Below the pieces are notes generated by a model. It ran no database searches. It saw only the letters and a program-made list of their open reading frames with translations, and was not told where the DNA came from. Below, one piece after another: positions 9,374 through 57,883 of a stretch of DNA of 64,000 bases (positions within the stretch are counted from its first letter, which is position 1; each line of letters starts with the position of its first letter). This stretch comes from Roseivivax marinus (GTDB lineage Bacteria > Pseudomonadota > Alphaproteobacteria > Rhodobacterales > Rhodobacteraceae): NCBI RefSeq assembly GCF_900109705.1, contig NZ_FOAI01000001.1, positions 372,001 to 436,000 on the forward strand, in the 5' to 3' direction. The position numbers and the translations under genes are program-made.

Positions 9374-9422
9374 CCTTCTTCTTGGTGAAAATACTCCGGG
9401 AGCGCGAGGGCAGCGCCCTCGC
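9374..9422 (-). repeat. Dispersed GGAGTATTT repeat, copy A
   Basis: On the minus strand: hairpin GCGAGGGC-GCT-GCCCTCGC (9404-9422), then GCTCCCGGAGTATTTT, then CACCAAGAAGAAGG. It fills most of the 76-base gap between a ligase gene and the PuuB-like gene, in the direction of transcription, and its last bases form the ribosome site of the PuuB-like gene. Same consensus as copies at 36395-36435, 41975-42023, 47857-47906 and 56551-56598. Confidence 0.8.
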
Positions 9423-9441
9423 TCCGGCCGGTGACACGGTC

Positions 9442-36046: not shown

Positions 36047-36464
36047 GGTCGCGCTCCGCTGTCTGGGAATGTCGGGTTGGCGGCGCTTGTAGGCGATTCC
36101 GCACCGCGCCGAAAGGGGCAGGGTGCACGGGGGCGTGGCATGCGCGCCCTGTCGTGCCGGGACCCGGCGCGGAACGTCCCGATCTTCACGCGACGCGCCG
36201 GACGGTGCCGCGGTCCGGCCGTCCGCGGAGCCTTCGAACCGGCACTCCGCGCCTCGATCGCCTCTTCCCGCGCAAAGCCTGCCGGGACCTGGCGCGGCCG
36301 GGAGCGTCTGCCGGCGCGTCAGCTCTCGCCGCGGCCCGGCTCCCGCCCTCGCCCGTTGATCGAAGGCCGGCCGCCTCCGCGCGGCCGCCCGCGTCTTCTT
36401 CTCGTGACAAATACTCCCGCCGGAGGCATGCCCCGGCCTCGCCGCCCGCGCGGGCGGCAGGTCA
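36047..36464. other. 418-base gap between rpe and ettA
   Basis: No gene-like reading frame with a ribosome site is seen on either strand. The part nearest rpe holds repeat copy E and a perfect palindrome GCCGCCCGCGCGGGCGGC (36441-36458), which may end the rpe transcript. The remainder presumably carries the ettA promoter; I see no clear -35/-10 pair. Confidence 0.55.
36395..36435 (-). repeat. Dispersed GGAGTATTT repeat, copy E
   Basis: On the minus strand: CCGGGGCATGCCTCCGG (imperfect hairpin with GGCATGCC core), then CGGGAGTATTT, then GTCACGAGAAGAAG. Located 30 bases past the rpe stop, same orientation as rpe. The GGAGTATTT core and GAGAAGAAG tail match the other copies; the hairpin differs. 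Confidence 0.72.
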
Positions 36465-41941: not shown

Positions 41942-41974
41942 GGGCGGTGTCCCGGCATGGCGCGCATCGGATGG

Positions 41975-42023
41975 CCGGGGGCGCCGCCCCCGGACCCCCG
42001 GAGTATTTCGGACAAGGAGAAGG
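41975..42023 (+). repeat. Dispersed GGAGTATTT repeat, copy B
   Basis: Hairpin CCGGGGGC-GCC-GCCCCCGG (41975-41993), then ACCCCCGGAGTATTTC, then GGACAAGGAGAAGG. Orientation is opposite to the flanking mre genes, so the element cannot act only as a leader or ribosome site. Confidence 0.8.
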
Positions 42024-42096
42024 AAGGCGCGTCGCGCTCTTTCCCGCATGGAGGGAGAGGGTGGGCAGCGTATGCTGCGTGGGTTCTATCCCCGCA

Positions 42097-42125
42097 CCTC
42101 CGGGATATTTTCGCCGTGAAGAAGG
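42097..42125 (+). repeat. Short variant of the GGAGTATTT repeat, copy B2
   Basis: CCTCCGGGATATTTTCGCC followed by GTGAAGAAGG resembles the second half of the element with GGATATTTT in place of GGAGTATTT. No perfect hairpin precedes it. It follows copy B by 73 bases in the same orientation. Confidence 0.5.
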
Positions 42126-47856: not shown

Positions 47857-47906
47857 GCGAGGGGCCAGCCCCTCGCGCTCCCCGGAGTATTTCGGACGAG
47901 AAGAAG
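47857..47906 (+). repeat. Dispersed GGAGTATTT repeat, copy C
   Basis: Hairpin GCGAGGGGC-CA-GCCCCTCGC (47857-47876, perfect 9-base-pair stem), then GCTCCCCGGAGTATTTC, then GGACGAGAAGAAG. Lies 61 bases past the DMGDH-like stop, in the direction of transcription. Confidence 0.82.
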
Positions 47907-55158: not shown

Positions 55159-56391
55159 ATGGTGAAGCGCACTCTTTCCGAGAAGCTCTCGATTCTCTCC
55201 GATGCGGCCAAGTATGACGCCTCCTGCGCGTCGTCGGGCGGCGAGCGCCGGGATTCGCGCGATGGCAAGGGGCTTGGCTCGGCCGGCGGGTCGGGCATCT
55301 GTCACGCCTACGCGCCGGACGGGCGATGCATTTCGCTTCTGAAGATCCTGATGACGAACTTCTGCATCTACGATTGTGCCTACTGCATCAACCGGGCCTC
55401 CAGCCGCGTCGAGCGCGCCCGCTTCTCGGTGGAGGAGGTCGTGTCGCTGACGGTGGAATTCTACCGGCGCAACTACATCGAGGGGCTGTTCCTGTCCTCG
55501 GGCATCATCCGCTCGCCCGACGACACCATGGCCGACATGGTCCGGATCGCCCGCACCCTGCGCGAGCAGGAGGGCTTCCGCGGCTATATCCACCTCAAGA
55601 CGATCCCCTCGGCCAGCCAGGAGCTGCTGGACGAGGCCGGGCGCTGGGCGGACCGGCTGTCGATCAATATCGAGATGCCGACGGAGCAATCCTTGTCCCG
55701 GTTCGCGCCCGAGAAGTCCGCCAAGGGCATCCGCAAGTCGATGGCCGACGTGCGGCTGCGCCGCGAAGCCTCGCGCGAGGGCCCGACCTTCCGCGGCAAG
55801 CGCCCGGCCAAGTTCGCTCCGGCGGGGCAGTCCACGCAGGTGATCGTGGGCGCGGACGGGGCGGACGACCGCACCATCCTGACGCAATCCTCGTCGCTCT
55901 ATGCCAGTTACGGGCTGAGCCGCGTCTACTACTCGGCGTTCTCGCCCATTCCCGACCCCGCCAAGGCGCTGCCGCTCAAGGCGCCGCCGCTGGTGCGGGA
56001 GCATCGGCTCTACCAGGCGGACTGGCTCCTGCGCTTCTACGGTTTCGGGGTGGAAGAGATCGGCGGTCGGAGCGGAATGCTGGACCTCGAGATCGACCCC
56101 AAGACCGCGTGGGCACTGGAGCACCGAGAGCGATTTCCCGTGGACGTGAACCGCGCCAGCCGCGAGGACCTGCTGCGCGTGCCGGGCTTCGGCACAAAGA
56201 CGGTGGGCCGCATCCTTGCCGCACGGCGCAGGGGCCTCGTGCGGTATGAGCACCTCAAGGCCATGGGGGCGGTGCTGAAGAACGCCAAGCCGTTCATCAT
56301 CGCCGGTGGCTGGTCGCCGCGGGGCATGCTGGAGGCGGAGGCGCTGCGCGCGCGGTTCGCCCCGCAGCCAGAGCAGATGGCGCTGTTCTGA
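55159..56391 (+). CDS. Putative DNA modification/repair radical SAM protein
   Basis: A 410-residue radical SAM enzyme. The cluster motif is NFCIYDCAYCINR (CxxxCxxC). The C-terminus has a helix-hairpin-helix DNA-binding element (DLLRVPGFGTKTVGRILAAR). This is the TIGR03916-type protein, which always pairs with a DUF4130 / UdgX-type protein. Its substrate is unknown; nucleic-acid repair is suggested by the helix-hairpin-helix and its partner. One base separates its stop from the partner's ATG. Confidence 0.9.
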   Translation: MVKRTLSEKLSILSDAAKYDASCASSGGERRDSRDGKGLGSAGGSGICHAYAPDGRCISLLKILMTNFCIYDCAYCINRASSRVERARFSVEEVVSLTVEFYRRNYIEGLFLSSGIIRSPDDTMADMVRIARTLREQEGFRGYIHLKTIPSASQELLDEAGRWADRLSINIEMPTEQSLSRFAPEKSAKGIRKSMADVRLRREASREGPTFRGKRPAKFAPAGQSTQVIVGADGADDRTILTQSSSLYASYGLSRVYYSAFSPIPDPAKALPLKAPPLVREHRLYQADWLLRFYGFGVEEIGGRSGMLDLEIDPKTAWALEHRERFPVDVNRASREDLLRVPGFGTKTVGRILAARRRGLVRYEHLKAMGAVLKNAKPFIIAGGWSPRGMLEAEALRARFAPQPEQMALF

Positions 56392-56392
56392 G

Positions 56393-57883
56393 ATGCGGCA
56401 GGTTATCCTTCCCCGCGTGCACACGGTGGCCGCATGGCGCCGCGAGGCGCGCGCGCTGGCGGCCGAGGGCGTGCCGGCCGAGGACGTGATCTGGTCGGTG
56501 GGGGAGGCGCCGCGAGACCTGTTCGCCGGGGCGTCCGGCGGCGGGGGGCGGACCGGGGCTCTGCCCCGGACCCCGGAGTATTTGGCGCGAGAAGAAGGTG
56601 CGGGCGATCGCTTGAGGGTGTCGCGCAAGGCGCTCGACAGTATCGAGAGCGCGCTGTGCCATTCGGACCCCGAGCGGTTCGGGCGGGGCTACCGCCTCGT
56701 GCTGCGGCTGTCGGCGGGGGCGGTGACGTGGGGCGACCGGGCGGACCGCGACGTGCGCGCTGTGCTCGAACACGCCATGGCCATCGGGCGCGACATCCAC
56801 AAGATGCATGCCTTCGTGCGGTTCCGGGAGGTGCCCGCGGACGGGCCGCGCCGCGCTTTCGCCGCCTGGTTCGAGCCAGAGCACAACTGCGTCGAACGCG
56901 GCACACCGTTCTTCGCCAAGCGCTTCGGTGACATGGACTGGGTGATCGCGACGCCTTCCGTCACGGCCCGGTTCGAGGGCGGGCGGCTGAGCTTCGAGGA
57001 AACGGTATCGCAGCAGCGCCCGCCGGAGGACGCGACCGAGGACCTGTGGCGGACCTACTACGCGTCGATCTTCAATCCGGCCCGGGTGATGGTGAAGGCC
57101 ATGTGCGCCGAGATGCCGAAGAAGTACTGGAAGAACCTGCCGGAGGCGGAGCTGATCCCCGGCCTTGTCCGTGACGCCGAGGCGCGGGTGCGCGAGATGG
57201 CCGAGACCGCGCCGGCGTCGATGCCGGATCGGCGCACCGAATCGCTGCGCGAAACGACGCGGGCGCTGCTGGCCGAGGCGGAACCGCAGGACGCGCTGGG
57301 TCGGCTGAACCGGCAGATCGGTGCCTGTGCGCGCTGCGGGATTTGCGCGCAGGCCACCGGCGCGGTTCCGGGAGAGGGGCCCGCCGATGCCGCGCTCATG
57401 GCGGTGGGCGAGCAGCCGGGCGACCGGGAGGACCTCGCGGGGCGGCCCTTCGTGGGCCCGGCGGGTCAGGTGTTCGACCGCGAGGCGCAGGCCGCGGGGC
57501 TCGATCGCGCGGCGGTCTACGTCACCAACGCGGTCAAGGGCTTCAAGTTCGCGCCGCGTGGCAAGCGGCGCATCCACCAGCGTCCGGACGCGGGCGAGGT
57601 AGCCCACTGCCGGTGGTGGCTCGACCTGGAGCGGCAGCTGGTGCGGCCGAAGCTGATCCTCGGCATGGGCGCGACCGCGGCGGAGGCGCTGACCGGCTCG
57701 GGGCGCGACATCGGTCGGCGCCGCGGTCGGATCGAGGAGGCCTCGGACGGCACGCCGGTGCTGTTGACGGTCCATCCGTCCTACCTCTTGCGGCTGCCGG
57801 ACCGGGCACGGGCCGAGGCCGAGACCGAGCGCTTCCGCGGCGATCTCGCCGCCGCGGCGCGGATCGCCGACAGCCTGGCTTGA
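56393..57883 (+). CDS. DUF4130-UdgX fusion, uracil-DNA binding protein
   Basis: A 496-residue fusion. Residues 1 to about 270 are the DUF4130 (SAM-partner) domain, with a HAFVRFRE block. From about 300 a UdgX-type Fe-S uracil-DNA glycosylase: cluster cysteines in GACARCGICAQ, GEQPGDREDLAGRPFVGPAG (motif A region), KRRIHQRP with His395, the residue that in UdgX becomes covalently bound to the abasic DNA, and LTVHPSYLLRL (motif B). Probable uracil sensing and covalent capture in DNA repair. Residues about 49-71 are encoded by an in-frame dispersed repeat and do not resemble the domain. Confidence 0.9.
   Translation: MRQVILPRVHTVAAWRREARALAAEGVPAEDVIWSVGEAPRDLFAGASGGGGRTGALPRTPEYLAREEGAGDRLRVSRKALDSIESALCHSDPERFGRGYRLVLRLSAGAVTWGDRADRDVRAVLEHAMAIGRDIHKMHAFVRFREVPADGPRRAFAAWFEPEHNCVERGTPFFAKRFGDMDWVIATPSVTARFEGGRLSFEETVSQQRPPEDATEDLWRTYYASIFNPARVMVKAMCAEMPKKYWKNLPEAELIPGLVRDAEARVREMAETAPASMPDRRTESLRETTRALLAEAEPQDALGRLNRQIGACARCGICAQATGAVPGEGPADAALMAVGEQPGDREDLAGRPFVGPAGQVFDREAQAAGLDRAAVYVTNAVKGFKFAPRGKRRIHQRPDAGEVAHCRWWLDLERQLVRPKLILGMGATAAEALTGSGRDIGRRRGRIEEASDGTPVLLTVHPSYLLRLPDRARAEAETERFRGDLAAAARIADSLA
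56551..56598 (+). repeat. Dispersed GGAGTATTT repeat, copy D, inside a coding sequence
   Basis: Hairpin CCGGGGC-TCT-GCCCCGG (56553-56569), then ACCCCGGAGTATTTG, then GCGCGAGAAGAAGG. It lies in the DUF4130-UdgX fusion gene and keeps the frame open, adding GRTGALPRTPEYLAREEG to the protein. All three parts of the consensus are present. Confidence 0.82.

Follow-up and report, generated by a model that had tools for sequence, protein, structure and literature searches.

The DUF4130-UdgX fusion gene of Roseivivax marinus carries, within its reading frame, a 48-bp sequence of the same build as copies lying between genes elsewhere in the 64,000-nucleotide stretch analysed here (contig NZ_FOAI01000001.1, positions 372,001 to 436,000; hereafter the window). 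A dispersed repeat inside a protein-coding gene raises the question of how the copy came to be there, and whether it acts through the peptide it encodes or as nucleic acid. The initial annotation of this DNA likened it to the Rickettsia palindromic elements (RPE) and proposed a protein-tolerated mobile sequence. Here, the repeat is instead read as a REP-like recognition site for a putative sequence-specific factor, for the reasons set out below.

The repeat copy in the DUF4130-UdgX gene

The three-part element first reported in an intact 496-codon gene is indeed present, in the form of a hairpin followed by CCGGAGTATTT and GAGAAGAAG (Table 1). Flanking GG-A/A-CC pairs lengthen the hairpin to 56550-56572, and the copy folds with an energy typical of sequences of this base composition (z -1.3). 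The product matches TIGR03915 over residues 11-252 and TIGR03914 (UdgX) over residues 254-487, with the Pfam domains PF13566 (DUF4130) and PF03167 (UDG). Since W15, R16 and R20, all of which precede the element, are invariant in 35 aligned sequences, the gene does begin ahead of the element, and the earlier suggestion that it might begin downstream fails.

Table 1. Features of the window, with positions counted from its first letter.
Feature	Position	Strand	Detail
Upstream neighbour, radical SAM protein	55159..56391	+	TIGR03916
DUF4130-UdgX fusion gene, host of the insertion	56393..57883	+	TIGR03915 + TIGR03914, 496 aa; ATG at 56393, stop at 57883, frame intact
In-frame repeat copy	56551..56598	+	encodes residues 53-69, RTGALPRTPEYLAREEG
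Perfect hairpin CCGGGGC-TCT-GCCCCGG, 7-bp GC stem	56553..56569	+	
Core CCGGAGTATTT, AG type	56573..56583	+	
Dialect tail CGAGAAGAAG	56588..56597	+	commonest tail among sampled copies of the R. marinus genome (G000)
Intergenic copy between two minus-strand genes	9375..9426 (approximate limits)	-	core 9389-9399
Intergenic copy, mutated core CGGGAGTATTT, tail CACGAGAAGAAG	36389..36440 (approximate limits)	-	core 36409-36419
Intergenic copy	41973..42022 (approximate limits)	+	core 41998-42008
Degenerate GA-core copy adjoining the preceding one	42075..42125 (approximate limits)	+	
Intergenic copy, other hairpin type GCGAGGGGCCAGCCCCTCGC	47857..47906 (approximate limits)	+	core 47882-47892

In an AlphaFold2 model built with the 35 sequences, the pLDDT is below 50 at residues 46-59 and 69-71, which places the insertion in a poorly ordered linker, as had been supposed; the residues between these two runs average in the 50-70 range, with residues 61-69 forming a low-confidence helix. 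As far as the protein is concerned, the segment probably amounts to a lengthening of the linker that is tolerated.

The homologue alignment that the initial annotation called for bears out the insertion. Sixty-one genomes were searched with the protein, and those 15 whose match spans nearly its whole length were aligned. Five of nine Roseivivax genomes (G000, the R. marinus genome of the window, and G001, G002, G006 and G008) have the element at an identical position and in one frame, and its residues are absent from the other four (G003, G004, G005 and G007) and from six outgroup homologues; the G005 protein has a long linker of its own, unrelated to the element. In a scan of DNA from 80 loci, the only core matches were those in the DUF4130 genes of four Roseivivax records and a further, unrelated one in L116. 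The 48-bp element is, in other words, a real in-frame insertion which added about 15 residues. The flanks are too diverged to mark its exact borders or a target duplication, and no close empty site is present. Within the five genomes, only one of ten species pairs, G002 against G008 (48/51), shows significantly better conservation of the copy than of the remainder of the gene; the few linker codons to either side are, even so, less conserved than the copy (412/510 for the copy vs 99/162 and 108/189, from pairs that are not independent).

Anatomy, placement and distribution of the repeat

The family to which this copy belongs consists of a GC hairpin and an anchor CGGRRTATTT, followed after about two free bases by a tail of about ten bases spelled in a species dialect. 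By eye, the stem is followed by the anchor with no uninterrupted T run. In the window, CCGGAGTATTT occurs five times with at most one mismatch against 0.28 expected, a number that none of 100 shuffles reaches, whereas the hairpin word alone is unremarkable there (four matches with at most two mismatches vs 5.2 expected). Across the R. marinus genome, CCCCGGAGTATTT is found 16 times and its reversed control not at all. Two hairpin types recur, again by eye, in all five species. An Rfam search of nine loci gave no match at the copies. At 41973-42125 of the window, a decayed GA-core copy lies some 100 bp from a good-stem copy of the same strand, which looks as if a newer copy adjoins an old one; two same-strand copies also lie 172 bp apart at L158:2083-2306 in G002.

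For a census, 192 distinct core matches were collected from loci of the five genomes, of which 175 remained as clean copies after a filter on hairpin and tail. The 17 dropped comprise ten from G000 (six with a GA core, including a decayed bchB copy, L140), one from G002 and six from G006, among them a chance coding match (L201); a few of the 17 have a good stem and merely an odd tail. Gene calls came from a codon-usage script rather than from annotation, and the dialect words and classes were defined in this analysis. On this basis, 164 clean copies are intergenic, four lie across a gene edge, one lacks a called gene on one side, and six are coding, at a coding density of 0.885. These six represent just two gene sites, the UdgX fusion and bchB, which are read in different frames. 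The coding-versus-intergenic count and the comparison of frames proposed at the outset thus return few coding copies and no common frame, and the RPE pattern, in which coding copies would be frequent, is not supported. Nor is it in two other genera, where the repeat has the same anatomy and placement: none of 40 copies lies fully inside a called gene and four overlap one (one of 41 matches having been dropped for its tail). Of the clean copies, 94 of 175 have no stop in any of the six frames of the stretch taken as the element.

The intergenic copies favour gene ends. The nearest upstream gene is on the same strand as the repeat for 124 of the 164, at a median distance of 33 nt; 30 are antisense to both neighbours and ten lie between divergent genes. 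In tandem gaps, 63 copies are in the sense orientation vs 30 in the other (p 0.0008). Among gaps of at least 60 bp, those with an element are convergent in 30 cases, tandem in 45 and divergent in three, in loci chosen for holding elements, vs 16, 152 and 64 for gaps without one. In three species (L128, L147 and L222) the called end of a GlcD-like gene overlaps the start of the hairpin; in L128 the best NCBIfam match of that gene is below the cut-off.

With one genome taken per genus, a core match is present in 148 of 198 Rhodobacteraceae genera, and at least four matches in 110, the number per genome ranging from 0 to 174; a stricter pattern that includes the tail occurs in 93 of the 198. An apparent strand bias by chromosome arm among the core matches is probably an artefact of truncated match lists. 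Since 50 genera have no core match, the repeat is dispensable. In a class-wide draw of 289 genomes the stricter pattern occurred only in the R. marinus genome; three of the 288 others are Rhodobacteraceae, so that core plus tail was found in none of the 285 genomes from other alphaproteobacterial families. Copies are sparse in G000, G002 and G006, with roughly one for every 30-120 kb. Three genera of the family share a type of hairpin region that has CCAATGGCGC..CAATGG as its basis (L186, L316, L322 and L326).

Tail dialects and a second coding site

Tails differ by species and the core letters are tied to the tails, while hairpin types recur across species. In the sampled loci of G000, the AG core goes with CGAGAAGAAG in 23 of 24 copies. 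All 28 copies sampled in G002 have an AG core, 27 of them with CCAAGAAGAAG, and the same tail goes with a GA core in G001 (24/24). In G008, AG is paired with CCAAGAAGAAG in 19 of 19 copies and GA with TCAAGAAGAAG in 12 of 13, and in G006 three combinations coexist, GA with GGCAGATGAA (23/23), AG with CCCAAAGAAG (37/37) and AG with CGAGAAGAAG (8/8). A dialect is thus shared genome-wide, and some genomes have two or three. For G001 and G008, loci were selected by a tail-containing pattern that is blind to GGCAGATGAA; a tail-free search gives the same dialects. That search also finds low-copy elements with other tails in G003 (three) and G005 (six), one relative in G004 and no copy in G007. In G000, a broken stem or the lack of a known tail affects nine of 12 GA-core matches vs four of 26 with an AG core. 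The copy inside the UdgX fusion follows the rule: its tail is that of its own genome's dialect in all five genomes, which two of 120 permutations equal.

The second host gene is bchB, which passes the TIGR01278 cut-off. In G002 the copy is read in a frame other than that used in the UdgX gene (..PQTPRSISAKKTE..) and precedes the conserved C-terminal part, in a variable stretch of the protein. The peptides differ accordingly, ..TPEYLAREEG.. in the UdgX fusion and ..PRSISAKKTE.. in BchB. The corresponding segment is present in G000, G001 and G008 and absent from G003, G004, G005 and G007; in G006 a bchB match was not found. The G002 copy reads AGTATTTccGCCAAGAAG, with an AG core and GCCAAGAAG, which is the dialect of that genome, and the G008 copy reads GATATTTccGTCAAGAAG, with a GA core and GTCAAGAAG, again the local dialect, the agreement in both cases coming with amino-acid changes. 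In G000 and G001 the bchB copies are degraded, by a broken stem and a mutated core respectively. Copies within or adjoining bchB, bchY and bchX genes lie at L140, L163, L221 and L234.

With one insertion common to five species and the other to four, the coding insertions are old, and that in the UdgX gene has been inherited. Of the proposal of a protein-tolerated mobile sequence, the in-frame entry, the linker position and the absence of a stop stand; mobility, on the other hand, is not supported, no sign of transposition having been seen among the species compared.

Inheritance of hairpin and tail

Copies at the same site in different species allow the history of the parts to be compared. Regions from G000 (19), G002 (20), G006 (40), G008 (20) and G001 (20), with some other fetched loci, gave 48 orthologous pairs at 25 distinct sites, defined by both neighbours being shared or by the same coding site; the tests on them count related pairs as independent. 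The hairpins of these pairs have a similarity of 0.62 vs 0.29 for random pairs, and core plus tail 0.52 vs 0.46 (p 0.009). The 34 intergenic pairs behave alike (hairpin 0.58 vs 0.30, core plus tail 0.51 vs 0.45), with 26-nt flanks at 0.18 and 0.14 vs -0.04. From these similarities it follows that sites and hairpins are mostly inherited, while the letters of the tail change together across a genome. Neither rule is strict, since hairpins are less alike than random pairs in six of the 48 and the tail is slightly above random.

The free bases between anchor and tail bear on how the tails change. Among pairs with the same tail word they match at 15 of 30 positions vs 7.7 expected (p 0.004), and among intergenic same-tail pairs without G000 at eight of 16 vs 4.2 expected (p 0.035). 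They tend, in other words, to be inherited under a given tail word, which favours change in place over replacement of a whole cassette.

What the repeat may be

The reading that we consider on balance probable combines an old linker insertion with a tail that serves as the site of a trans-acting factor, the tails tracking the specificity of that factor. One copy entered the DUF4130-UdgX linker in the common ancestor of a single Roseivivax subclade, whose members have kept it in frame. The repeat would act as nucleic acid rather than as peptide, and selection would retain those sites where binding is harmless, at the 3' ends of genes and within linkers. When the specificity of the putative factor shifted in a lineage, the tails would shift across its sites, coding copies included, while the hairpins were mostly just inherited. 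Two or three dialects in a genome would then correspond to two or three readers, and decayed relics may mark a reader that has been lost. Uptake-sequence dialects, for comparison, evolve with their receptor. A broader form of the idea is offered only tentatively and is more doubtful than the first: the repeat could throughout the family be a set of recognition sites in which the hairpin-CGGRRTATTT anchor stays constant and the tail is re-spelled along with a fast-evolving reader, a protein or a guide RNA, even within genes, some genomes having two or three such readers.

Candidates for the factor were sought with Pfam models and by clustering neighbouring genes, and it was not found by these means. 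RAYTs mobilise REPs; the RAYT/Y1 transposase (PF01797) is absent from all nine Roseivivax genomes and present in five of 14 control genomes. The IS91-type Y2 transposase (PF04986) is lacking in the R. marinus genome and occurs in 20 of 198 genera, where its presence is unrelated to that of the repeat (11 of the 110 genera having at least four core matches vs nine of 88 others). Reverse transcriptases (RVT_1, PF00078) are likewise lacking in R. marinus, occur in 53 of 198 genera and are unassociated with the repeat (25/110 vs 28/88, p 0.2). Among clusters of 930 called genes around the copies, made up of unannotated families, no dedicated partner gene was seen by eye.

Of the other explanations, concerted evolution without function, in which gene conversion or cassette overwriting homogenises the copies, would account for tails that track the genome rather than the site, for hairpin types recurring in several species, and for same-site hairpins that in some cases differ completely. 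Against this stand the hairpins, which are mostly inherited, and the free bases, which tend to be so too, given the same tail word; conversion tracts would consequently need to be very short, and we regard this account as unlikely. Less likely again is a selfish mobile sequence of the RPE kind, with insertion at any site and tolerance inside proteins. In-frame insertion in two unrelated genes, the many copies open in all six frames and the patchy distribution among genera are what such a sequence would give, but the coding copies are few against a coding density of 0.885, the orthologous pairs show sites to be common across species, the frames at the two coding sites differ, and PF01797, PF04986 and PF00078 detect no enzyme of these three kinds in the R. 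marinus genome.

Two functional roles have also to be weighed. Species dialects, hairpins at gene ends and occasional coding copies would suit a sequence of the uptake-signal type that molecular drive has spread, like the DNA uptake sequences (DUS) of Neisseriaceae; the density of the repeat is, however, far below the thousands of DUS per genome given in the available text of PMC3630211, which makes this role improbable. Rho-independent or bidirectional transcription terminators would fit the placement after same-strand genes and the excess of convergent and deficit of divergent gaps among those with an element. The stem is nevertheless followed by no uninterrupted T run and the dialect tail beyond it is left unexplained. 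Moreover, since sense-orientation copies persist inside two genes, where termination would truncate the product, and since 50 of 198 genera do without the core, termination is very improbable as the main role, and the least probable of the four accounts.

The repeat is REP-like, although it differs from each of the known systems compared here. As far as the available text of the sources on REP, RPE and QMITE features goes (PMC3733652, PMC12306157, PMC10969869, PMC2635572, PMC5896051), it shares with REPs the short GC hairpins, the many copies, the intergenic position near gene ends and the lineage-specific variants. It differs from REP/RAYT systems in having no GTAG or CGTC tag consistently beside the stem (within 8 nt, GTAG/CTAC in 0/175, CGTC in 6/175 and GACG in 11/175) and no Y1_Tnp in the nine Roseivivax genomes, and from REPs in its long, one-sided dialect tail, which is inherited differently from the hairpin. 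It has in common with the RPE its palindromic build and its translation, in frame, within genes that are otherwise normal; the RPE are, however, about 150 bp long rather than about 48 bp, nearly half of their copies are coding according to the parts of PMC10969869 at hand, and they supply one conserved peptide where the present repeat is read in two frames at two sites. It resembles the DUS in having species-specific dialects uniform within a genome, as excerpts of PMC3630211 report, and departs from them in its much lower copy number and in being composed of hairpin, anchor and tail rather than a short word. The Coxiella QMITEs, too, are palindromic, and in some cases they lengthen a protein or lie in frame within one; they are MITE-like and longer (QMITE2 matches of 83-100 nt), and, as described in the portions of PMC5896051 consulted, have no dialect pattern. 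Among the matches listed in the literature searched, a description of a hairpin-CGGRRTATTT repeat was not found, which is weak evidence of absence.

Palindromic repeats built into proteins, reported for Rickettsia and Coxiella, are found here in a further lineage, and, of greater weight, the repeat family exposes a case where hairpin and tail obey different rules of inheritance. Should the tails indeed be set by a trans-acting reader, the genera with at least four core matches (110 of 198) would constitute a natural series of reader-site pairs which, with its dialects, multi-dialect genomes and decayed relics, could be used to find the reader and to ask by what route a genome changes the spelling of so many sites. 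Copies inside genes are well suited to such tests, since the surrounding gene can be aligned.

Copies in viral collections

Six contigs of about 14 kb and 64-73% GC in viral collections (L253, L256, L264, L271, L274 and L275) carry a copy of the repeat, which lies 1.3-1.8 kb from one end and directly after a called gene; from their size, these may be gene-transfer-agent clusters filed as viruses. In phage records the full element was not found. Six small-phage records, one of them classed as Microviridae, match 28-29 bases of hairpin plus core over one common stretch; in the rodent-gut microvirus among the six (L246:2316-2360) CCGGGGCTCTGCCCCGGACCCCGGAG is followed by GATCAAGGAGA, which together are close to hairpin plus core.
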